This document shows, one piece after another, positions 19,497 to 31,451 of a stretch of DNA of 64,000 nucleotides. Location: positions 558,001 to 622,000 of the forward strand of contig NZ_CADFDK010000003.1 in assembly GCF_902832885.1 (NCBI RefSeq), given 5' to 3'. The DNA is from Burkholderia seminalis DSM 23518 (GTDB taxonomy: Bacteria; Pseudomonadota; Gammaproteobacteria; Burkholderiales; Burkholderiaceae). The notes beneath the pieces are model-generated. The model was given only the letters and a program-made list of their open reading frames with translations. It was not told the origin of the DNA and searched no databases. Position numbers and translations under genes: made by a program. Within the stretch, counting starts at the first letter, position 1; each line of letters starts with the position of its first letter.

Positions 19497-20585
19497 CTAC
19501 ACGCGCCGCATCGTCGCCGATACCAGCGCCGCATCCTCGCCCGTCCCGGCCGGCCGTGCCGCCGGCGCCGCATCGGCCGGCCGCGCACCGAGCCCCGTGC
19601 CGCCCGCGCGCCGCCGCGTCGCATGCCGCTCGATCACGCGCTGCAGCACGCAGAACACGCACAGCAGCGCGCCGATCACGATTCGCGTCCACCACGAACT
19701 CAACGTGCCGTCGAACGTGATCAGCACCTGGATCGTACCGAGGATGCCGACGCCGAACACCGAGCCGATCACGTAGCCCACGCCACCCGTCAGCAGCGTG
19801 CCGCCGATCACGGTCGCGGCGATCGCGTCGAGCTCCATCCCCTGCGCCTGCAGCCCGTAACCCGACAGCACGTACAGCGTGAACACCACGCCGCCGAGCG
19901 CCGAACAGAAGCCGCTCAGCGCGTAGACGCCGATCTTCGTGCGCGCGACCGGCAGCCCCATCAGCAGCGCCGAGCGCTCGTTGCCGCCGATCGCATACAC
20001 GTTGCGGCCGAAGCGCGTGAAATGCGCGACGTAGATCGCGACGGCCAGCGTCGCGAGCGCGATCAGCGCGCCCGCGCTCAGCATCCCGCCGCCGACCGGC
20101 ACGCTGATGCCCGCGATCGCATGGAACACCGGTTCGTTGATCGTGATCGACTGCGTCGTGATCAGGAAGCACGCGCCGCGCGCGAGAAACATCCCGGCCA
20201 GCGTGACGATGAACGGCTGCAGACGGAAGTAATGGATCAGCGCGCCCATCGCCGCGCCGTACAGCGCGCCGAACGCGAGCACGAGCGGCACGATCACCCA
20301 CACGGGCCAGTGCAGCCGCTCGGCGCCGACCGCGCAGAAGATCGTTGTCAGCGCAACGACCGAGCCGACCGACAGATCGATGCCGCCCGACACGATCACG
20401 AAGGTCATCCCGATCGCGACGATCAGCAGGAATGCGTTGTCGACGAGCAGCCCGGTCAGCACCTGCATCGAGAAGAAGCCCGTGTACATCACGGACCCGA
20501 AGCCGAACAGCGCGGCGAACAGCACGATCGTCACGACGATCGGCAGCGTGCGCGGATCGGCAAGCCGTGCGAGGAATCGGTTCAT
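19497..20585 (-). CDS. yjfF: Sugar ABC transporter permease, YjfF-like
   Basis: 362 residues with about ten hydrophobic helices of the ribose/galactofuranose permease family. [20 protein letters not shown] is the conserved loop, and [24 protein letters not shown] the late family block. An Ala/Pro-rich cytoplasmic tail of about 40 residues follows the last helix. It overlaps the upstream permease gene by four bases. As one of two different permease subunits it should heterodimerise with the YtfT-like protein, the arrangement known from the E. coli galactofuranose importer. Confidence 0.88.
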
Positions 20586-21622
20586 CGCGGCGTCGCTCCG
20601 GTGGTGGCGCGCGAACGCGCGGCAGGCAGCAGTCGCGACGCGAACCGGACGACGAGCGCACGCGCCGCGTCCGACTGGATCAGCGTCACGACGATCACGA
20701 CGACCGCCTTGACGACGAGCGTCGCCTCCGGCGGCACGCCGATCGAATAGGTCGTGTAGGTGAGCGTCTGGATGATCAGCGCGCCGAGCACCGAGCCGGC
20801 GAGGCTGAAGCGGCCGCCGAGCAGCGACGTGCCGCCGAGCGTCACCGCGAGGATCGCGTCGAGTTCGAGCAGCAGGCCCGCGTTGTTGCCGTCCGCACTG
20901 CGCACGTTCGAGCTCGCGAGGATGCCGGCCAGCGCCGACATCACGCCCGAACACAGATAGACGCCGAACACGACCGCGCCCGAGCGCAGCCCGACGAGCC
21001 GCGTCGCGACCGGGTTCACGCCGATCGCGCGAATGAACAGCCCGAGCGCCGTGCGGTTCACCAGCAGCGCGGTCGCCGCGATCGTCGCGGCCGCGATCCA
21101 CACCGCGCACGGCACGGTCGCGAGATAACCGCCGCCCAGCGCGAGGTAGCCCGGCGCGCCGATCGGGATGATCTGACCGCCCGTCAGCAGTTGCGCGACG
21201 CCGCGGCCGGCCACCATCAGGATCAGCGTCGCGATGATCGGCTGCATCCCGACGAATGCGACGAGCAGCCCGTTCCACGCGCCGGCCAGCAGCCCGACAC
21301 CGAGCGCGGCCGCGAGCGCCAGGCCGACCCGCGACGGGTCCGCATCGAGCACGATCGCCGCGGCCGCGCCGGCAATCGCGACGATCGCACCGACCGAGAT
21401 GTCGATCCCGCGCGTCGCGATCACGAGCGTCATCCCGAGCGACACGAGCACGAGCGGCGCCGCGCGGTTCAGGATGTCGATCGGCGCGCCGAACAGGTGA
21501 CCGTCGAGCAGCGCGATCGACAGGAAACCCGGACGATACGCGACGTCGAGCGCCAGCAGCAGTACGAGCGTCAGCACCGGCCACGCGAGCGGATGACGAA
21601 ACAGCGTGCGCAGCCGCGTCAT
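20582..21622 (-). CDS. ytfT: Sugar ABC transporter permease, YtfT-like
   Basis: 346 residues, polytopic, same family as its neighbour: [25 protein letters not shown] contains the conserved membrane loop, and [26 protein letters not shown] the C-terminal block. It overlaps both neighbours by four bases (ytfR upstream, yjfF downstream), so the three are translationally coupled. A dedicated pair of unlike permeases is characteristic of the ytfQRT-yjfF system, which imports galactofuranose in E. coli; substrate by analogy only. Confidence 0.88.
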
Positions 21623-23133
21623 GACTGGCCTCCCGCGATCAGCCGGTACACCTGCTCCTCGGAAGCGTCGGCGCCGGTCAGTTCGGCGACCTTGCGCCGG
21701 TCGCGCAGCACCGCGATCCGGTGGCTCACGCGCACCACCTCGCCGATCTCCGACGAGATGAACAGGATCGCGAGCCCTGTCGCGCACAACGCGAGCACTC
21801 GCTCCATGATGTCGAACTTCGCGGCGACGTCGATGCCGCGCGTCGGCTCGTCGAGGATCAGCAGCTTCGGGGCCGTCGCGAGCCAGCGCGCGAGCAGCAC
21901 CTTCTGCTGGTTGCCGCCCGACAGCAGCCCGATCGGCTGCTCCGCGTCGCGCGCCTTGATGCCGAGCCGGGCGATGTACGTCTCGGCGATCTCGCGCTGC
22001 CGCGCGCGCCCGATCAGCCGCCACCAGCCGCGTCGCGCCTGCAGCGCGAGGATGATGTTCTCGCGGATCGACAGCGCGGCGACGATGCCCTCCTTCTTGC
22101 GATCCTCCGGACAGTACGCGATGCCGTGCCGGACCGCATCGTGCGGCGACGCGAGCCGCGTGCGCGCGCCGTCGATCTCGATCGCGCCGGTGTCCGCGCG
22201 CTCGGCGGCAAACGCCAGCTGCGCGGTTTCGGTGCGCCCCGAGCCGAGCAGCCCGGCCAGCCCGACGATTTCGCCCGGACGCACGTCGAGATCGAGCGCA
22301 CTCATCATCCCGCGCCGGCCGACCTGCTGCATCGACAGGAACGGCGCGGCGCCGCCGGCCGTGCGCTCGACGGCCGCCGCGCCGGCTTGCAGCGTGTCGG
22401 ACATCCGTTCGCGGCCGGTCATCTTCGCGACCAGCGCGTCGACCGGCAGGTCGCGTGCCAGATACTCGCCTTCGCGCTCGCCGTTGCGCATCACGGTGAT
22501 CCGGTCGGACACCGCATAGGTCTGCTCGAGAAAGTGCGTGACGAACAGGATCGCGATGCCCGACGCCTTCAGCCGGCGCAGCACGTCGAACAGCCGCGCG
22601 ACCTCGCCGTCGTCGAGGCTCGACGTCGGCTCGTCGAGAATCAGCACGCGCGCGTCGACGGACACGGCGCGCGCGATCGCGACCATCTGCTGGACGGCGA
22701 TCGGATACGCATCGAGCGAGCGCGTGACGTCGAGCGACAGGTCGAGCTCGCCCAGCGCCGCGCGCGAGCGCGCATGGATCGCGTTCCAGTCGATCGCGCC
22801 GCGCCGCATCGGCTGCCGGCCCGCGAAGATGTTCTCCGCGACCGACAGGTTCGCGCACAGGTTCACTTCCTGGTAGAGCGTCTGGATGCCGGCCGCCTCG
22901 GCCTCGCGCGGCGCGGCGAAGCGCACCGGCCGGCCGCCGACGCGAATCTCGCCTGCATCGTGCGCATGCACGCCGGTGAGCACGTTGATCAGCGTCGACT
23001 TGCCCGCGCCGTTCTGGCCCATCAGCGCGTGGATCTCGCCCGGAAACAGCCGGAAGTTCACGCGCTGCAGCGCGCTGACGCCCGGAAACGACTTGTCGAT
23101 GCCGATCATCTCGACCACCGGCGGACTCTCCAT
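21619..23133 (-). CDS. ytfR: Sugar ABC transporter ATP-binding protein, YtfR-like
   Basis: 504 residues, two ABC domains. Domain 1: Walker A MGQNGAGKST near residue 40, Walker B LILDEPTSSLDD; its signature region YPIAVQQMVAIARAV is diverged, as usual for the first domain of this class. Domain 2: degenerate Walker A GLLGSGRTE, signature [15 protein letters not shown] and Walker [14 protein letters not shown]. Start is the Met of MESPPVVEMIGIDKSFPG. It lies 74 bp after the binding-protein gene and overlaps the ytfT-like gene by four bases. Confidence 0.92.
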   Translation of the reverse strand: MESPPVVEMIGIDKSFPGVSALQRVNFRLFPGEIHALMGQNGAGKSTLINVLTGVHAHDAGEIRVGGRPVRFAAPREAEAAGIQTLYQEVNLCANLSVAENIFAGRQPMRRGAIDWNAIHARSRAALGELDLSLDVTRSLDAYPIAVQQMVAIARAVSVDARVLILDEPTSSLDDGEVARLFDVLRRLKASGIAILFVTHFLEQTYAVSDRITVMRNGEREGEYLARDLPVDALVAKMTGRERMSDTLQAGAAAVERTAGGAAPFLSMQQVGRRGMMSALDLDVRPGEIVGLAGLLGSGRTETAQLAFAAERADTGAIEIDGARTRLASPHDAVRHGIAYCPEDRKKEGIVAALSIRENIILALQARRGWWRLIGRARQREIAETYIARLGIKARDAEQPIGLLSGGNQQKVLLARWLATAPKLLILDEPTRGIDVAAKFDIMERVLALCATGLAILFISSEIGEVVRVSHRIAVLRDRRKVAELTGADASEEQVYRLIAGGQS

Positions 23134-23207
23134 GCAGCCTCCCTCGAAGCGGTTGCGATCCTCGGGCGGCCGCGATGCGGCGGCCCGAGCCGGACCTGCC
23201 CGGCCGG

Positions 23208-24170
23208 TCAGTACTTGCGGGTCGGCATCACCTGCGCGGCGACGCTCATCGGGAACACGGTCTCGTTCGTGACGATGCGCTTGGGCAGCGTCTTGCCGGC
23301 GACGACGTCCTTCACCGCGCTCATCAGTTGCGGGCCGAGCAGCGGGCTGCATTCGACGTCGACGTTGATCTTGCCGGCGATCATCGCCTGGAAGCCGCCC
23401 TTCGTCGCGTCGAACGACACGACGCTCACGTCCTTGCCGGGCTTGATCCCGGCTTCCTCCATCGCCTGGATCGCGCCGAGCGCCATGTCGTCGTTGTGTG
23501 CGTAGACGACGTTGATCTGCTTGCCGTAGGTCTTCGCGAACGCTTCCATCACCTGCTTGCCGCCGGCGAGCGTGAAGTCGCCGCTCTGCGACGCGATCAC
23601 CTTGAATTTGGGATTGTTCTTGATCACTTCGAGCAGGCCCGCGCGCCGGTCGTTGGCCGGCGCGGAACCGACCGTGCCCTGCAGCTCGACGATGTTGATC
23701 GGGCCCGGGTCGTTCTTGTAGCGCTCTTCCATCCAGTGGCCCGCGCGGCGCCCTTCCTCGAGGAAGTCCGAGCCGATCATCGTCACGAACAGCGACGGAT
23801 CCTTCACGTCGACCGCGCGGTCGGTCAGGATCACCGGGATGTGCGCGGCCTTCGCTTCGGTCAGCACGGGCTCCCAGCCCGATTCGACGACCGGCGAGAA
23901 CGCGATCACGTCGACCTTCTGCGCGATGAACGAGCGAATCGCGCGAATCTGGTTCTCCTGCTTCTGCTGCGCGTCGGAGAATTTCAGGTTGATGCCGGCA
24001 TCCTTCGCCGCGCTCTTCACCGACACGGTGTTCGCGGTGCGCCACGCGCTTTCCGCGCCGACCTGCGAGAACCCGAGCGTGATCGGCTTCTGCTGGGCGA
24101 ACGTGTCCGGCGCCCATACCGTCGCCGCGGCGACGAGCGCACCGGCCGCCAGCTTCCTGATGAATGTCAT
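23208..24170 (-). CDS. ytfQ: Sugar-binding periplasmic protein, YtfQ-like
   Basis: 320 residues, signal peptide ending APDTFAQ. The type I binding-protein fold is evident: ITLGFSQVGAESAWRTANTVSVKSAA, QENQIRAIRSFIAQKVDVIAFSPVVESGW and VVYAHNDDMALGAIQAMEEAG. The opening phrase with Gln-Val-Gly-Ala-Glu-Ser-x-Trp-Arg is characteristic of YtfQ-type galactofuranose receptors. It is the promoter-proximal gene of the four-gene operon. No galactose/galactofuranose catabolic enzyme other than galM lies nearby. Confidence 0.9.
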   Translation of the reverse strand: MTFIRKLAAGALVAAATVWAPDTFAQQKPITLGFSQVGAESAWRTANTVSVKSAAKDAGINLKFSDAQQKQENQIRAIRSFIAQKVDVIAFSPVVESGWEPVLTEAKAAHIPVILTDRAVDVKDPSLFVTMIGSDFLEEGRRAGHWMEERYKNDPGPINIVELQGTVGSAPANDRRAGLLEVIKNNPKFKVIASQSGDFTLAGGKQVMEAFAKTYGKQINVVYAHNDDMALGAIQAMEEAGIKPGKDVSVVSFDATKGGFQAMIAGKINVDVECSPLLGPQLMSAVKDVVAGKTLPKRIVTNETVFPMSVAAQVMPTRKY

Positions 24171-24660
24171 GGTCCGTCTCCGATGATGTAATTGTCTGCC
24201 GCGGCGCTGTTCTGATTCTGCATGGCGCGAACGCGGTGCGGGGCCGGTGCCGGCCGGCGCGTTCGGCCGGCCCGGTCTGCATGCCCCGCATCAGTCTAGG
24301 AACAAGTCCGATAACCTTCCAATGAAATATTGGATTGAGGCGATATCGGAATCGGCATACGTATAAACACCTAAACGCACACCCCGCCCGTTACAGCCGG
24401 CCCTGGCCGCGTTTGCGACGCCCTCGCCCGCCACGCCATGTTCCGTTCGGCGAATCCGCCGAATGCCGCCTTCGTCATCGTGTGTTCGTTCGCACGCGTG
24501 GTATCGCGGCCGCAGCCGGGCCGGGAACGGCGCACGATTCTTGCTCCCCGGGGCTCGAACCGACGAACGAGCAGGAGCAGAACATGCGTGCAGGATGTCC
24601 GCCCGGAACACGGCCTGGCGATACGCGGATCGGCACACGCGTCGATCGACGCGCCGCGGC
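24171..24660. promoter_or_regulatory. Divergent ytfQ/topoisomerase promoter region with inverted repeat
   Basis: A 490-bp gap without a convincing gene. It holds a 6-bp inverted repeat TCCAAT-GAAAT-ATTGGA at 24318-24334 in a locally AT-rich patch, about 150 bp upstream of the ytfQ-like start, and a CGATATCG palindrome just beyond (24351-24358). These are candidate operators for the sugar operon. The half nearer the topoisomerase gene shows no clear promoter. Confidence 0.4.
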
Positions 24661-25707
24661 ATGACGAAGCGCACGCCATCGCGGCCGAATACGCGCATGC
24701 CCGGCGGGCCCCTGCGTCATGTCGACGACCGTCGCCCCGGCTATACGCGCCGGCGGCTCCGCCACGGCTTTGCCTATTACGGACCTGACGGTGCGCGGGT
24801 TCGCGACGCCGACGAAATCGCCCGCATCGACGCGCTTGCGATTCCACCCGCGTACACCGACGTATGGATCTGCATGGACCCGCGCGGACATCTTCAGGCA
24901 ACCGGCCGCGACGCGCGCGGGCGCAAGCAGTATCGCTATCACCCGCTGTGGCGCGAGACGCGGGACGCGAACAAGTACGCGCGGATGGCCGCCTTCGCGC
25001 GGGCGCTGCCGCGCATCCGCGCGCGCGTCGCGCGTGATCTGGCGTTGCCGGGCATGCCGCGCGACAAGGTCGTCGCGACGATCGTCCGATTGCTCGACAC
25101 CACGCTCGCACGGATCGGCAACGCCGAATACGCGCGGGAAAACGGCTCGTACGGGCTGACGACGCTGCGCAAGCGCCATTTGAAGATCCAGTCCGGCCAG
25201 GTGCGGCTGCGCTTCGCCGGCAAGAGCGGGATCGAACACGACGTGACGGTCGACGACGCGCGGGTCGCGCGGATCGTGCGGCGCTGCGCGGAGCTGCCCG
25301 GTCACGAGCTGTTCCAGTACGTGGACGACGACGGCGCGCGCCATCCGGTCGGCTCGTCCGACGTGAACGACTACCTGCGTGACGCCGGCGGCGCCGATTT
25401 CACCGCGAAGGATTATCGGACCTGGGCCGGCAGCGTGCACGCACTCGGCTTGTTGCGGCGCGTGGAGCACCGCGGCATCACGCACGCGCGCAAGCAGATC
25501 GTCGAGACCGTGCGCGCGGTGGCGGACCTGCTGCGCAACACGCCGGCCGTGTGCCGGCGCTGCTACATCCATCCGGCCGTGCTGGACGCCTTCGAGGCGG
25601 GTGCGCTCGCCGCGCTCGCGGTCGAGCGGACGCCGCGCGGCCTGCGTGCGGACGAAGCGGCCTTCGTGGCGGTGCTCGGCGCCGTCGGCCGGCGCGCGGC
25701 GAAATGA
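24661..25707 (+). CDS. DNA topoisomerase IB (poxvirus/eukaryote-like)
   Basis: 348 residues from MTKRTPSRPNTR. The N-terminal DNA-binding region (RRPGYTRRRLRHGFAYYGPDG, IPPAYTDVWICMDPRGHLQATGRDARGRKQYRYH) and catalytic domain match bacterial type IB topoisomerases. Catalytic residues are visible: Arg/Lys in TTLRKRHLK, Arg in KDYRTWAGS, and the nucleophilic Tyr302 in CRRCYIHP. The enzyme relaxes supercoils through a 3'-phosphotyrosyl intermediate without ATP. It stands alone, so co-regulation cannot be read. The upstream in-frame extension is not family-like, hence this start. Confidence 0.93.
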   Translation: MTKRTPSRPNTRMPGGPLRHVDDRRPGYTRRRLRHGFAYYGPDGARVRDADEIARIDALAIPPAYTDVWICMDPRGHLQATGRDARGRKQYRYHPLWRETRDANKYARMAAFARALPRIRARVARDLALPGMPRDKVVATIVRLLDTTLARIGNAEYARENGSYGLTTLRKRHLKIQSGQVRLRFAGKSGIEHDVTVDDARVARIVRRCAELPGHELFQYVDDDGARHPVGSSDVNDYLRDAGGADFTAKDYRTWAGSVHALGLLRRVEHRGITHARKQIVETVRAVADLLRNTPAVCRRCYIHPAVLDAFEAGALAALAVERTPRGLRADEAAFVAVLGAVGRRAAK

Positions 25708-25873: not shown

Positions 25874-26602
25874 CTAGACGCGGCCCGCCAGATGAAACCG
25901 CGATGCCGGATGCCAAAGCTGCACCGACGTCGCGACGTGATCGCCCACCCAGGTACGGCGCCGCAGCAACAGGCACGGCTCGCCGATTTCCATCACGAGG
26001 TGCCGACGCACCTGCGCATTGGGCTTCTCCGCGTAGATCCTGAACTCGGCACGCTGGATCGGTGCCAGTCGCACCATGTAGTGATTCGGCGTCTCGAGCG
26101 TGAAATCCTGCTCGAGATAGTCGGGAAACAAGACCGGATTGACGTAGCGATCCTCGAACTGGATCGGCTCGTCTTCCTCGAAATGCACGATGCGCGAGTG
26201 AAACACCGGCCCCGACCGCAGCCCGAGCGCATCGATCGCTTCCGGGTCGACGCTGCGCTCGATCAGCAGCACCCGCGCGCTGTGCCGATGGCCCCGCTCC
26301 GCGATCTCGTCCGCGATGTTGCGGATTTCGAGCACCGTCGATTCGTAATGCCGGCGTTCGACGAACGTGCCGGCTCCCTGGATGCGGGTCAGCACGCGTT
26401 CGGCCGTCAGTTCGCGCAGCGCGCGCGACACCGTCATCCGGGCCACGCCGAATTCCTTGACCAGTTCGGCCTCGGTGGGAATCGCGCCGCCGGGCTTCCA
26501 GTCGCCCTTCGCGATCCGTTCGACCACGTAGCGCTTGATCTGCTGATAGGCCGGCAGTGCACGCGCCGGCCGGGCGGAAAGTTCGCGTTCCGTTTCGTTC
26601 AT
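25874..26602 (-). CDS. HutC-like GntR-family regulator (UTRA domain)
   Basis: 242 residues. N-terminal winged helix of the GntR family (ALPAYQQIKRYVVERIAKGDWKPGGAIPTEAELVKEFGVARMTVSRALREL), then a UTRA effector domain with the HutC-like phrases QGAGTFVERRHYESTVLEIRNIADEI, HSRIVHFEEDEPIQFEDRYVNP and RRTWVGDHVATSVQLWHPASRF. HutC itself represses hut genes and responds to urocanate. Here it is the last gene of the operon it probably controls, 49 bp after the MIO-less lyase, so its effector may be the lyase product or substrate. Candidate operators are at 31452-31468 and 31622-31633. Confidence 0.9.
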   Translation of the reverse strand: MNETERELSARPARALPAYQQIKRYVVERIAKGDWKPGGAIPTEAELVKEFGVARMTVSRALRELTAERVLTRIQGAGTFVERRHYESTVLEIRNIADEIAERGHRHSARVLLIERSVDPEAIDALGLRSGPVFHSRIVHFEEDEPIQFEDRYVNPVLFPDYLEQDFTLETPNHYMVRLAPIQRAEFRIYAEKPNAQVRRHLVMEIGEPCLLLRRRTWVGDHVATSVQLWHPASRFHLAGRV

Positions 26603-26651: not shown

Positions 26652-28145
26652 TCACTGCAACGACGGCGGCACGCCCGCGACGATGCCTGCCGCGATCGCG
26701 ATATCGTCCGCGAGCGGCCGGTCGTCGTGATACGCCGGCACGCGTTCGCGCACCTGCCGCCACAACGCATCGGTCGACGCGGCCCGCCCCGTTTCGCCCG
26801 ATTGCAGGTCGTATGCCTGCGCGGCGGCCAGCAGCTCGATCGCGAGCACGCGCGTCGTATTCTCGATGATGTCGAGCGCCTTCAGCGCGGCCGGCGTCGC
26901 ATGACACAGGTGATCTTCCTGCAGCCCCGACGTGATACCGCCGTCGAGGCTCGCCGGCGCCGCGAGACGCTGGTTCTGCGCGACCAGCGCGACCGCCGTG
27001 TACTGCGCGATCATGAAACCGGAGCAACTGCCGCCCGGCGTCGCGAGAAACGCCGGCAGCCCGCTGACGAGCGGATTCACGAGCCGGTCGAGACGTCGCT
27101 CGGCGATCGCCGCGACCTGGGCCATCGCGGCCGCGAGGCTGTCCATCGCGAGCGCGATACCCGCACCGACCGCATGGGCCTGCGAATGCGCGACGGGTGC
27201 CTCCCGCGTGCCGGCGACGATCGGATTGTCGGTGACGGACGCGAGCTCGCGATCGACCACCTCCGCCGTCACGGCGAACACGTCGCGCGCCGCGCCATGC
27301 ACGTGCGGAATCGTGCGCAGGCTGAGCGGATCCTGCGTATGCCGGCCGCTCGCCGCGCACAGCATCCCGCTGCCCGCCAGCAGCGCACGCAAGCGCGCCC
27401 CGACCTGCCCGATGCCCGGCGAAATCCGCAGCGCGAGCGACGCCGGATCGAATGACGCGAGTTGCCCGCCGAGGTTCTCGAAGCTCATCGCCGCGATCCA
27501 GTCGGCCCAGTCGAGCAACCGTTCCGCGCGCGCGAGGGCGAGCGCGGCCAGGCCGGTGACGCACGGTGTGCCGTTGACGAGGCTCAACCCTTCCTTCGCG
27601 CCGAGGACGAGCGGCTCGCGACCGATACGGCGCAGCGCCTCGTCGCCGCGCATGCGCTCGCCGCGATGGCGCGCATGACCGTGACCGATGCAGACGAGCG
27701 CGACGTGAGCCATGTGGGTCAGATAGCCGACCGACCCGTGCGCCGGCACTTCGGGCAGGCAATCGTGCTCGAGCAATGCGACGAGCTGCTCGACGACGTC
27801 GACCCGCACGCCTGAATACCCGTGCACGTAATTGTTGATCGCCGCCGCGATGATCGCGCGCGTTTCCGCCGCGCCGAGCGGCACGCCGACGCCCACCGCG
27901 TGGCTCATCAGGATGTTGCGCGACAGCTCGCTCTGCTGGGCCGGCGATACGATCACGTTGCACAGCGCGCCGACCCCCGTGTTGACGCCGTACGCGCGAA
28001 TGCCGCGCGCGACGATTTCGTCGACGAGTTCGCGAGCGGCGACGACGCGCGCGCGGGCGTCGTCGGTCAATGCCAGCGGCGCGCCTGCCGCCACCGCCGC
28101 AACCTGGCGCCAGTCGAGCGGCCGTGCCGCGCGGAATACGGTCAT
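26652..28145 (-). CDS. Histidine-ammonia-lyase homologue lacking the MIO triad (ergothionase candidate)
   Basis: 497 residues, full family length. Typical HAL blocks are present: AYGVNTGVG (~51-59), LMSHAVGVG (~79-87), LVNGTP, QDPLSLRTIPHVHGA, ASVTDNPIV, SGLPAFLATPGGSCSGFMIAQ and TSGLQEDHL. However, the stretch that normally reads GSVG-ASG-DLAPLAHM reads GSVG-YLTHMAHVA (residues 137-149). Alignment by eye shows a clean three-residue loss of Ala-Ser-Gly, the residues that cyclise to the MIO electrophile. Such an enzyme cannot use classical MIO chemistry to expel ammonia. Ergothionase, a relative that eliminates trimethylamine from ergothioneine without MIO, fits this pattern and has been studied in Burkholderia. 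The gene follows the ABC ATPase by 7 bp. Confidence 0.85.
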   Translation of the reverse strand: MTVFRAARPLDWRQVAAVAAGAPLALTDDARARVVAARELVDEIVARGIRAYGVNTGVGALCNVIVSPAQQSELSRNILMSHAVGVGVPLGAAETRAIIAAAINNYVHGYSGVRVDVVEQLVALLEHDCLPEVPAHGSVGYLTHMAHVALVCIGHGHARHRGERMRGDEALRRIGREPLVLGAKEGLSLVNGTPCVTGLAALALARAERLLDWADWIAAMSFENLGGQLASFDPASLALRISPGIGQVGARLRALLAGSGMLCAASGRHTQDPLSLRTIPHVHGAARDVFAVTAEVVDRELASVTDNPIVAGTREAPVAHSQAHAVGAGIALAMDSLAAAMAQVAAIAERRLDRLVNPLVSGLPAFLATPGGSCSGFMIAQYTAVALVAQNQRLAAPASLDGGITSGLQEDHLCHATPAALKALDIIENTTRVLAIELLAAAQAYDLQSGETGRAASTDALWRQVRERVPAYHDDRPLADDIAIAAGIVAGVPPSLQ

Positions 28146-28152
28146 GACGGCC

Positions 28153-28944
28153 TCAGTTGGTGGTGCGGTCGTGGTGGCTCGACACGAATTGCCGGAAGCG
28201 CTCGGAGGTCTGGCCGCCGAAGACCGCGTCGGGCGTCCCGTCCGTGTCGACCTCGCCCTGATGCAGGAACATCACGCGATTCGACACGTGCCGCGCAAAG
28301 CCCATTTCATGCGTGACGACCAGCATCGTGCGGCCCTCTTCCGCGAGCGAGCGCATCACGCGCAGCACCTCGCCGACCAGCTCGGGGTCGAGTGCCGACG
28401 TCGGTTCGTCGAACAGCATCACTTTCGGATGCATCGCGAGCGCGCGGGCGATCGCGACGCGCTGCTGCTGCCCGCCCGACAGGTGGGCAGGATAGTAGCC
28501 GCGCTTGTCCGCGAGGCCGACGCGCGCCAGCAGCGCCTCGGCCTCCTCGACCGCTTCGGCGCGGCTGCGCTTTTGCACGCGCAGCGGCCCTTCGACGAGG
28601 TTGTCGAGCACCGTCATGTGCGACCACAGGTTGAAGTTCTGGAACACCATGCCGAGCTGCGAACGGATCCGGTCGACCTGGCGGCGGTCGCTCGGGTGCA
28701 GCTTGCCGTCGCGCGCGCGCTTCATCGCCAGTTCCTCGCCCGCGAGCGCGACGGAGCCGTCGTCGGGGGTCTCGAGCAGGTTCAGGCAGCGCAGGAACGT
28801 GCTCTTGCCCGATCCGCTCGCGCCGAGGATCGAGATGACGTCGCCCTCATGCGCGTCGAGCGAAATGCCCTTCAGCACATGATGATCGCCGAACGACTTG
28901 TGGATGTTCTTGACCGACAGCGCAACGGGAGCAGCGGTGTTCAT
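28153..28944 (-). CDS. Polar amino-acid-type ABC transporter ATP-binding protein
   Basis: 263 residues of the HisP/GlnQ family: Walker [16 protein letters not shown] near residue 45, Q-loop VFQNFNLW, signature [15 protein letters not shown], Walker [15 protein letters not shown], and the His switch [22 protein letters not shown]. The insert after Walker A ([22 protein letters not shown]) is typical of HisP-like ATPases. It sits between the two permease genes and the MIO-less lyase, 27 bp after one and 7 bp before the other, so uptake and cleavage of the substrate are probably one function. Confidence 0.92.
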
Positions 28945-28971: not shown

Positions 28972-29715
28972 TCAGGAGGCGACGCGCCGGGCATTGCGGG
29001 CCGACGCGGGCGCACTGGACGGCTTCGGCGCACGCAGGTGCGCCGAGAGCCGCCATTCGAGCGCGCCGAGCAGGCGCACGACGATGAAGTTCAGGCCCAG
29101 ATAGATGACGGCGGCGCAAACGAACACTTCGGTCGTCCGATAGGTTTGCTGAATGATCTGCTGCGCGACGCCCGTCACCTCCCACACGGTGACGAGGCTC
29201 GCGAGCGCGGTCGACTTGACGAGCAGCACGGCCTCGGTCGAATACGCGGGCAGGCACTGGCGCAGCGCGATCGGGCCGATCACGCGCCGCAACAACGCGA
29301 AACCGGACAGACCGATCGAGTAACCGGCTTCGATCTGCCCGACCGGCACGGCCATCAGCCCGCCGCGCAGGATCTCGGCCGTGTAGCCGGCCGTGCACAG
29401 TGCGAGCGACAGAACCGCGCAGACATAAGGTTCGCGCAGCAGCGGCCACATGAAGCTCTCGCGGATCACGCCGAACTGGCCGAGCCCGTAATACACGAGA
29501 AACATCTGGATCAGCAGCGGCGAGCCGCGAAACACCAGGATGTACGCGCGCGCAAAACGGTTCGGCAGCCAGTGCGGCGACACGCGCATCGTGACGATCA
29601 CGAGCGACAGCAGGCCGCCGAGCACGAGCGACGCGAAGAACAGCCCGAGCGTGGTCGGCACGGCCGCGAGCAGCTGGCGCAGCGTATCGAGGAGAAAGCC
29701 GAAATCGATGGACAT
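28972..29715 (-). CDS. Polar amino-acid-type ABC permease (HisM-like)
   Basis: 247 residues with about five membrane helices of the His/Glu/Gln/Arg/opine permease family: FASLVLGGLLSLVIVTMRVS, FRGSPLLIQMFLVYYGLGQF, the EAA-type loop EAGYSIGLSGFALLRRVIGPIALRQCLPAY that docks on the ATPase, and a C-terminal helix. Twelve bp separate it from the partner permease. With its partner it forms the membrane channel for the operon's substrate. Confidence 0.9.
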   Translation of the reverse strand: MSIDFGFLLDTLRQLLAAVPTTLGLFFASLVLGGLLSLVIVTMRVSPHWLPNRFARAYILVFRGSPLLIQMFLVYYGLGQFGVIRESFMWPLLREPYVCAVLSLALCTAGYTAEILRGGLMAVPVGQIEAGYSIGLSGFALLRRVIGPIALRQCLPAYSTEAVLLVKSTALASLVTVWEVTGVAQQIIQQTYRTTEVFVCAAVIYLGLNFIVVRLLGALEWRLSAHLRAPKPSSAPASARNARRVAS

Positions 29716-29727
29716 GCGCGTTCTCCG

Positions 29728-30450
29728 TCAGTTGCGCGCGAAATTGCGGCGGAACGACCGGCCGACGATCGCTTCCGCCCGGTTGAACACGCGGTTCGAC
29801 AAGCCCGTCATCAGCAGGTACAGCGCACCGCCCGCGACGAAGAACACGAAGTACTGGTGGGTCGAATTGGCGGCGATCTGGCTCGTGCGCAGCAGCTCGG
29901 CCAGGCCGGTGACCGAGATCAGCGCCGAGTCCTTCAGGCTCAATTGCCATACGTTGCCGATACCGGGCAGCGCGAAGCGAAGCACCTGCGGAATCAGGAT
30001 GCGGCGCAGCACCATGCTGCGGGGCATGCCGATCGAGCGTGCCGCCTCGAGCTCGCCCTTCGACACCGCGAGCACCGCCGCGCGATAGACCTCCGCCTGG
30101 TAGGCGCCCGAAATCATTCCGACCGCGAGCGCGCCGATCACGAACGGCGGCACGCCGATGAATCCTTCCGCGCCGAACCACTGGCCGACGGCCGTGACGA
30201 GCGTCGAGCCGCCGAAGTAGAACAGATAGATGACGAGCAGTTCGGGCACGCCGCGAAATACCGTCGTGTACAGGTCGCCGAGCAGCCGGGCGCTGCGGTA
30301 GCGCGACAGCTTGGCCGCCGCGATCGCCGCGCCGATCACCGCGCCGACCGCGAGCGCGGCGAGCGTCAGCGCCACCGTCATCAGCGCGGCGAGCAGCAGC
30401 ACGCCGCCCCAGCCTTCGGTTCCGAAGCCGAGCATTTCAATAATCGCCAT
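29728..30450 (-). CDS. Polar amino-acid-type ABC permease (HisQ-like)
   Basis: 240 residues beginning MAIIEMLGFGTEGWGGVLL. Same family: FRGVPELLVIYLFYFGGSTL, EVYRAAVLAVSKGELEAARSIGMPRSMVLRRILIPQVLRFALPGIGNVW (EAA loop), then LLMTGLSNRVFNRAEA. The start is chosen because the longer frame has no membrane or family-like sequence and would crowd the binding-protein stop. It follows the binding-protein gene by 85 bp. Confidence 0.9.
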   Translation of the reverse strand: MAIIEMLGFGTEGWGGVLLLAALMTVALTLAALAVGAVIGAAIAAAKLSRYRSARLLGDLYTTVFRGVPELLVIYLFYFGGSTLVTAVGQWFGAEGFIGVPPFVIGALAVGMISGAYQAEVYRAAVLAVSKGELEAARSIGMPRSMVLRRILIPQVLRFALPGIGNVWQLSLKDSALISVTGLAELLRTSQIAANSTHQYFVFFVAGGALYLLMTGLSNRVFNRAEAIVGRSFRRNFARN

Positions 30451-30535: not shown

Positions 30536-31396
30536 TTACGGCGTGACGTCGGTCTTGAACCACTTGTCGGCGAGCTTCTTCACCGTGCCGTCCGCGAGCG
30601 CCGCGCCGATCGCCGTATCGAACTTCGTCTTCAGGTCGGCATCCTGCTTGCGGAACGCAAGCCCTTCGCCCGGCCCCCAGATCGGCCCGCCGAGCTTCGG
30701 ACCCGCGAGCACGATCGACGCGTTGTCCTTCTTCGCGTTGTTCGCCGCGTAGTACGTGACGTCGTCGAACGATGCGTCGATGCGCCCGGCGACGAGGTCG
30801 AGATCGCGCTCGGGGGAGGTCTTGTACACGCGAATCGACGCGATGTCCTTGAAGCTGTCGTTGATGAATTTCGTGTAGACGGTGCCCGACTGGATGCCGA
30901 TCGTCTTGCCCTTCAGCTGCTTGCGCAGCGCGTCGACGGTGGGCTTGTCCGCGTTGGCGTCGCCCGTCAGCTTGACGATCGGCGCGCCGGGCGCGGCCTT
31001 CGGCAGGATCTTGGTGTCGGTGACGGCGAACGTCGCGGGCGTCGCCGCGTACGGACGCGAGAACAGCAGGATCTTTTCGCGGTCCGGCGTGATGGAAATC
31101 GCATCCATCAGGATATCGAACTTGCCGGCCTGCAGGCCGGGGATCATCCCGTCCCAGTCCTGCGCGACCATGTTGCACTGCACCTTGATCCGTTCGCACA
31201 CGTTGGCGAGCAGCTCCGGTTCGAAACCGCCCAGCTTGCCGCCGGGCAGCGTGAGGTTCCAGGGTGCGTAGCCGCCTTCGAGCGCGACCGTCACCGTTTT
31301 CCATTCCTTGGCCTGCACGGGAGCCGCGAGCGTTGCCGCCGCGGCCGCGATGATGCCGATCGTCCTGAGTGCCCAGTTGATGCGCTTGCCGTTCAC
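30536..31396 (-). CDS. Family 3 periplasmic solute-binding protein
   Basis: I choose the GTG at 31396 because AAGGAG lies eight bases before it and the product then begins with a clean signal peptide (GKRINWALRTIGIIAAAAATLAAPVQA-KEWKTV); the longer ATG forms add unlikely sequence. 286 residues with the SBP family 3 pattern: VALEGGYAPWNLTLPGGKLGGFEPELL, QDWDGMIPGLQAGKFDILMDAISITPDREKILLFSRPYA, and IGIQSGTVYTKFIND. These bind amino acids and betaine-like compounds; the ligand is presumably the substrate of the lyase downstream. It is the first gene of the operon. Confidence 0.9.
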   Translation of the reverse strand: MNGKRINWALRTIGIIAAAAATLAAPVQAKEWKTVTVALEGGYAPWNLTLPGGKLGGFEPELLANVCERIKVQCNMVAQDWDGMIPGLQAGKFDILMDAISITPDREKILLFSRPYAATPATFAVTDTKILPKAAPGAPIVKLTGDANADKPTVDALRKQLKGKTIGIQSGTVYTKFINDSFKDIASIRVYKTSPERDLDLVAGRIDASFDDVTYYAANNAKKDNASIVLAGPKLGGPIWGPGEGLAFRKQDADLKTKFDTAIGAALADGTVKKLADKWFKTDVTP

Positions 31397-31451
31397 GAGA
31401 TTTCTCCTTGCGTTGAAGTTCGCCATCCCTTCGGTGCAGCAAGCCGCCTCA

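Follow-up and report, generated by a model that had tools for sequence, protein, structure and literature searches.

The cofactor of histidine ammonia-lyase (HAL), methylideneimidazolone (MIO), is formed from an Ala-Ser-Gly triad. A gene in a 64,000-nucleotide stretch of Burkholderia seminalis DSM 23518 (contig NZ_CADFDK010000003.1, positions 558,001 to 622,000; the window hereafter) encodes a HAL-fold lyase in which this triad is missing, inside an operon for a solute importer, and the locus raises the question of what such an enzyme does and on which substrate. An initial annotation proposed that the operon imports and cleaves ergothioneine or another histidine betaine. We estimate with a probability of roughly 0.7 that hercynine (N-alpha,N,N,N-trimethylhistidine, histidine betaine) is the compound taken up through this operon and that the MIO-less lyase splits off its trimethylamine, leaving urocanate for the histidine utilization (hut) pathway.

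The window lyase reads as an intact gene, with an ATG start and no internal stop over 497 amino acids, and the Pfam Lyase_aromatic model spans the whole protein (model positions 1-466 of 466, 500 bits). In an alignment with Pseudomonas putida HutH (1b8f), whose numbering we follow for Asp145 and the active-site residues, the HAL block GSVG-ASG-DLAPLAHM appears as GSVG-YLTHMAHV, a net loss of three residues; Asp145 is also replaced by Tyr in this loop. Positions G137-S-V-G-Y-L142 and H144-M-A-H147 of the loop, numbered as in the window lyase, do not vary among all 14 aligned window-type sequences (the window lyase and others 69-90% identical to it). The MIO triad is absent from these 14, from all 20 distant relatives outside Burkholderiaceae (49-62% identity) and from a protein of Rhizobium etli CFN 42. 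Since the loop is invariant and the triad is absent from the distant relatives as well, the loss of the MIO-forming Ala-Ser-Gly is neither chance nor decay; the initial annotation had already argued from the window alone that it is not simple decay. Its further claim that all other HAL blocks are kept was too broad, as Tyr280 is replaced by Leu and Phe329 by Ala. Residues Y53, H83, N195, Q277, R283, Q413 and E414 are retained and are invariant across the 14 and 20 sequences, all from Pseudomonadota. The window lyase shares with HutH the HAL fold and Y53, H83, N195, Q277, R283 and E414, residues with roles in HAL. Window-type lyases differ from HutH in the lost triad, in Leu for Tyr280 and in Ala or Pro for Phe329, and the window lyase stays under the cut-off of the hutH equivalog model (TIGR01225, 450 bits versus 539.15).

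The enzyme that the initial annotation had in mind is ergothionase, known from Treponema denticola (6s7j/6s7q). The two proteins are alike in the HAL fold, the absence of the MIO triad and the Tyr280 to Leu exchange, and both would eliminate trimethylamine from a histidine-derived betaine, a reaction that is predicted for the window lyase. The closest solved relative of the window lyase, however, is a MIO histidase (E 1.1e-86, versus 3.9e-50 for T. denticola ergothionase), and it is 39% identical to HutH of its own genome and 29% to ergothionase. The initial annotation had taken clustering with MIO-containing HALs as speaking against its proposal; by identity the window lyase does lie nearer to them, whereas the tree does not settle the deep branching. 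That tree, from which 13 of 41 earlier rows were omitted as near-copies and to which three MIO outgroups were added, gave 100% bootstrap support each to the window type, the ergothionase group, a third MIO-less group and HutH, with a program warning that long branches meet. An approximately unbiased (AU) test did not reject one MIO-less clade holding the window type and ergothionase (p 0.526), and we do not claim independent losses of MIO. The third group consists of lyases from three Burkholderiaceae loci (L054, L055 and L056, in genomes G051, G034 and G013) with the loop GSVGYLAPEAHM, in which Tyr280 is kept. They are about 40% identical to the window lyase, the adjoining binding protein is 64-68% identical to that of the window, and within 7.5-8 kb there are no other hut-gene matches and no operator.

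A five-step ergothioneine pathway has been published. As a positive control, the ergothionase clade was located by its neighbourhood to thiourocanate hydratase. Called by a curated model with a cut-off of 930 bits, thiourocanate hydratase occurs in 8 of 200 Burkholderiaceae genomes (1028-1054 bits; next best among the matches listed, 695). Six of the eight are adjoined by a second kind of lyase, which shares 28-29% identity with that of the window; the one tested (L138) matches ergothionase 6s7j best among PDB entries (E 1.7e-75), and the best histidase follows at 2e-53. All six share with 6s7j the motif S[IL]GE[AG]DITxLSH. In the alignment with T. denticola ergothionase that the initial annotation had called for, this motif is absent from the window lyase, which has GSVGYLTHMAH, and it occurs in none of the 14 window-type rows. 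The ergothionase clade also carries Ser at N195 and Ile at Q413, residues that the window lyase keeps. At the one hydratase locus scanned for it (L133), a thiohydantoin desulfurase adjoins (611 bits versus a cut-off of 440), and the eight hydratase stretches have no HutI, HutF, HutG or HutC match and no operator. The neighbours of ergothionase are thiourocanate and thiohydantoin genes, whereas those of the window type are hut genes. No thiourocanate hydratase passes the cut-off in 34 of the 39 genomes with a window-type lyase, the own genome among them, where the single urocanase reaches 691.5 bits; the remaining five belong to the eight, and in these both lyases coexist at separate loci. Two hydratase loci (L139 and L140, in genomes G168 and G174) are over the cut-off and have no ergothionase relative within 19 kb.

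The importer genes, of the polar amino acid family, lie upstream of the window lyase on the same strand and a HutC-type regulator lies downstream, so that every part of the operon named by the initial annotation is present. Window-type lyases were found in 39 of the 200 genomes, 37 of them full-length or nearly so at 69% identity or more and two broken or partial, and Burkholderia, Paraburkholderia and Caballeronia species are among the named hosts (best 80 of 398 related places). We compared 104 loci, namely 24 stretches including the window and 80 named records, with some genomes counted twice and some contigs ending near the lyase. Importer genes and lyase stand together in 103 of them, and HutC then follows in 97. 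The HutC of the window operon is 51% identical to that of the hut operon in the same genome and scores above the TIGR02018 cut-off. In line with the initial annotation, this regulator probably senses a urocanate-like product. According to PMC8871633, HutC binds when urocanate is absent.

The promoter of the own hut operon contains TTGTCTAGACAA and a near copy, and the window operon is preceded by TTGTATAGACAA. The palindrome TTGTNTANACAA has five sites in the 8 Mb genome, versus two for a reversed control pattern; they lie in the hut promoter, at the window operon and before a ProY-like permease, an NCS1-like permease and an AraC-type gene. Possible histidine or urocanate transporters include poorly annotated permeases such as ProY, as stated in PMC8871633. 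The 103 regions upstream of orthologous operons comprise 75 with an exact TTGTNTANACAA, 25 with a single mismatch and 3 with two, versus 1 exact and 11 single-mismatch cases among 2060 shuffles; all but six of the 100 good sites (94) start at a distance of 20-66 nt from the inferred start of the binding protein. An operator sequence common with the hut promoter and an adjoining HutC gene place the operon in the predicted hut regulon, with HutC binding predicted from the site itself.

In its own genome, the window operon is located apart from a complete hut operon (HutH-HutC-HutU-HutD-HutI-HutF-HutG) that holds the only urocanase as well as a MIO-bearing HutH. In some other genomes the two systems are joined. 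Three loci from two Caballeronia species (L047 and L232 being one record) read importer-lyase-HutC-HutU-HutD-HutI-HutF-HutG, and HutU, HutD, HutI, HutF and HutG continue the lyase cluster in C. catudaia, C. arvi and genomes G009 and G047. The sole urocanase of the genome sits in the lyase cluster in four of the 39 window-type genomes (G009, G047, G139 and G179); their MIO-bearing HutH is encoded elsewhere, with no HutU around it (3.8 kb visible in G179). Five urocanases adjoin a lyase; those scanned, from G139, G047 and G078, gave 940-973 bits with the hutU model and 658-690 bits with the thiourocanate hydratase model, below the cut-offs of both thio-models. Because these urocanases fit hutU and four genomes keep their only urocanase in the lyase cluster, the product of the window lyase most likely enters as plain urocanate. 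The HutC regulator, the operator common with the hut promoter and the hut genes beside relatives together assign the window enzyme to histidine utilization.

We extended the comparison by an alignment search of 398 Pseudomonadota genomes, in which three candidates were scored per genome and counts are therefore lower bounds. At least 23 genomes scored 537 bits or more, followed by a gap down to 378. The 20 of these that lie outside Burkholderiaceae, the distant relatives, all have Leu280, whereas triad and Tyr280 are both present in each of the 13 HutH proteins encoded in the same stretches. In 17 of the 20, two or more hut enzyme genes lie near the lyase. Five loci (L269, L273, L274, L284 and L285) share the order hutU ... 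ATPase-lyase-HutH-HutI-HutG, which in L273 reads in full hutU-NCS1 permease-substrate-binding protein-permease-ATPase-lyase-HutH-HutI-HutG. The importer of L273 is of the glycine-betaine type (OpuAC, PF04069; ProV subfamily, 368 bits versus a cut-off of 326.6). An ATPase of 31-35% identity lies near the lyase in 10 of the 20, that of L273 alone being classified by hidden Markov model; a HisJQMP-type importer accompanies the lyase in 6, and none directly adjoins it in 4. The L273 lyase is 54% identical to the window lyase and its adjoining HutH 85% identical to P. putida HutH. The L273 lyase occupies the same slot and gene order as HutH1 of Pseudomonas (SBW25, and P. aeruginosa according to PMC8871633), an equation that rests on the gene order described in PMC8871633 and on the identity of the adjoining HutH, not on the HutH1 sequences of SBW25 or PAO1. 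This Pseudomonas-type locus has a betaine-type importer within hut, whereas the window operon, separate from hut, encodes an importer of the HisJQMP type. In locus L282 (5013-6551, minus strand; genome G501), another HAL-fold lyase lacking Ala-Ser-Gly (GSLGAADLAQL, QDPLSYR) adjoins a hut cluster with a window-type lyase.

The gene, the MIO loss, the residues, the synteny, the operator and the distinctness from ergothionase were computed, and from residues and neighbours we infer the substrate and, with it, reaction, transport specificity and inducer. The importer would take up hercynine, which fungi and actinobacteria make as an ergothioneine precursor, and the lyase would convert it to urocanate and trimethylamine; urocanate would then pass to HutU, HutI, HutF and HutG, encoded elsewhere in the genome. 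In HAL, the electrophile MIO activates histidine's free amino group. Trimethylamine leaves readily as it is and would not need MIO, and the active site would combine retained histidine-recognition residues with a remodelled space near the position of MIO (Leu for Tyr280, Ala for Phe329). One lyase type, predicted to make urocanate, occurs with importers related either to histidine and opine importers or to betaine importers, which points to hercynine, at once a histidine derivative and a betaine. A build-up of urocanate may free HutC from the palindrome common to both promoters, so that use of the substrate would induce the window operon and hut together. The initial annotation is supported in its "another histidine betaine"; its preference for ergothioneine is not supported, since the lyase beside thiourocanate hydratase is of another clade and the relatives stand beside ordinary hut genes.

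Several observations weigh against hercynine as the substrate and hut as its destination. Urocanase does not stand beside the lyase in 34 of the 39 window-type genomes, and for three of the 20 distant relatives (L277, L280 and L281) the stretch examined contains no hut enzyme gene. Of the 20 distant stretches, no more than 6 have an exact TTGTNTANACAA, and 17 have TGTA-N2-TACA, a count made without a control run. TGTA-N2-TACA is the HutC consensus of Pseudomonas (PMC12977541), from which the window operator departs by one mismatch. In C. catudaia (L232), the operator before the importer is poor, with two mismatches, and an exact copy precedes HutU. HutXWV is called a histidine transporter in PMC8871633. 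The own genome encodes EgtD over the cut-off (G000:C8:11533-12447, L249), preceded by an EgtB-like gene judged by eye, so that both hercynine and ergothioneine are probably produced by the organism's own enzymes, which raises the question of a futile cycle. Gamma-glutamylmethylamide synthetase (TIGR03105) does not pass the cut-off there (best 233 versus 469.6 bits; other routes were not searched), and one route for using methylamine nitrogen therefore seems absent. Finally, the binding protein is closest to opine-binding proteins, which leaves room for other alpha-N-substituted histidines.

That last point leads to the rival explanations. The lyase might act on dimethyl- or monomethylhistidine, a histidine opine or a related metallophore, releasing urocanate and an amine: the nopaline- and octopine-binding proteins nearest to the window protein bind alpha-N-substituted amino acids, and the hut evidence supports urocanate as product only. 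The importer beside the lyase in L273 is nevertheless of the glycine-betaine family, the Tyr280 to Leu exchange is common with ergothionase, an enzyme that acts on a trimethylammonium betaine, and without MIO tertiary and secondary amines are, as a matter of general chemistry, poorer leaving groups; we consider such substrates unlikely. Conversion of ergothioneine to thiourocanate and trimethylamine is highly improbable in view of the separate clade, the different motif, the absence of the hydratase from most window-type genomes and the hut neighbours, and we rejected it as the best reading. Little credence can likewise be given to a histidase that releases ammonia in the absence of MIO or by means of another catalytic group. 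Its relatives do lie in hut clusters and the recognition residues of HutH are kept, but Tyr280 is lost, a MIO-bearing HutH is encoded in 13 of the 20 distant neighbourhoods and in the own genome, and hutH1 of SBW25 is reported not to be required on histidine (PMC8871633). Least plausible of all is a dead paralogue retained as a urocanate-binding or scaffold protein, since the loss of both MIO and Tyr280 that would fit it is set against seven invariant active-site residues and a conserved importer and operator.

We regard it as fairly probable that the HutH1-type paralogue, which occurs across Pseudomonadota under the name of histidase, acts without MIO as a hercynine trimethylamine-lyase and so lets a betaine enter hut, served by two importers, the HisJQMP histidine/opine type in Burkholderia and Rhizobium and the glycine-betaine-type HutXWV in Pseudomonas. 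If true, this would account for the dispensability of hutH1 on histidine and for the presence of a betaine-type transporter within the hut operon, and the puzzling extra "histidase" that other bacteria carry would gain a role. The predicted use of hercynine within hut is an enzyme activity and pathway that would connect the metabolism of ergothioneine with histidine utilization and with the release of trimethylamine. The split from true ergothionase matters for surveys of trimethylamine sources. Annotation is affected as well: the gene at NC_007765.1:93556-95049 (R. etli CFN 42 plasmid p42e) is named hutH, histidine ammonia-lyase, yet lacks the triad on checking, and many similar plasmid records carry this name in RefSeq, so that the catalytic cofactor is lacking in at least one protein named "hutH" in RefSeq and probably in many others. 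Among the literature matches listed, titles and abstract openings mention no bacterial hercynine lyase, most subscription journals being outside the coverage.

Table 1. Features of the lyase operon, in window coordinates
Feature	Position	Strand	Basis and remarks
HutC-type GntR/UTRA repressor	25874..26602	-	TIGR02018 HutC, 280.9 bits versus cut-off 220; start codon inferred
MIO-less HAL-fold lyase, predicted hercynine (histidine betaine) trimethylamine-lyase	26652..28145	-	497 aa; Pfam, alignment, structure-database comparison
Ala325 codon (Phe329 of P. putida HutH)	27171..27173	-	Alignment
Leu274 codon (Tyr280 of P. putida HutH; Leu in ergothionase too)	27324..27326	-	Alignment
Gly140-Tyr141 codons, place of the missing Ala-Ser-Gly	27723..27728	-	P. 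putida HutH alignment; coordinates computed from residue numbers
ABC (ATP-binding cassette) importer ATPase, HisP-like	28153..28944	-	Profile search
ABC importer permease, ArtM/HisM-like	28972..29715	-	Profile search
ABC importer permease, HisQ-like	29728..30450	-	Internal ATG chosen; open reading frame open from 30528
Substrate-binding protein, family 3	30536..31426	-	Start codon inferred; closest solved relatives are nopaline-/octopine-binding proteins
Predicted HutC operator TTGTATAGACAA	31457..31468	-	Some 30 nt before the inferred start of the binding protein

Beyond the operon, the window holds a sugar-type ABC importer at 20582-24170 on the minus strand, whose YtfQ-like binding protein scores 352 bits versus a cut-off of 510 and whose ATPase and permeases were judged by eye. 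An open reading frame at 24463-25707 on the plus strand resembles type IB DNA topoisomerase, also judged by eye.
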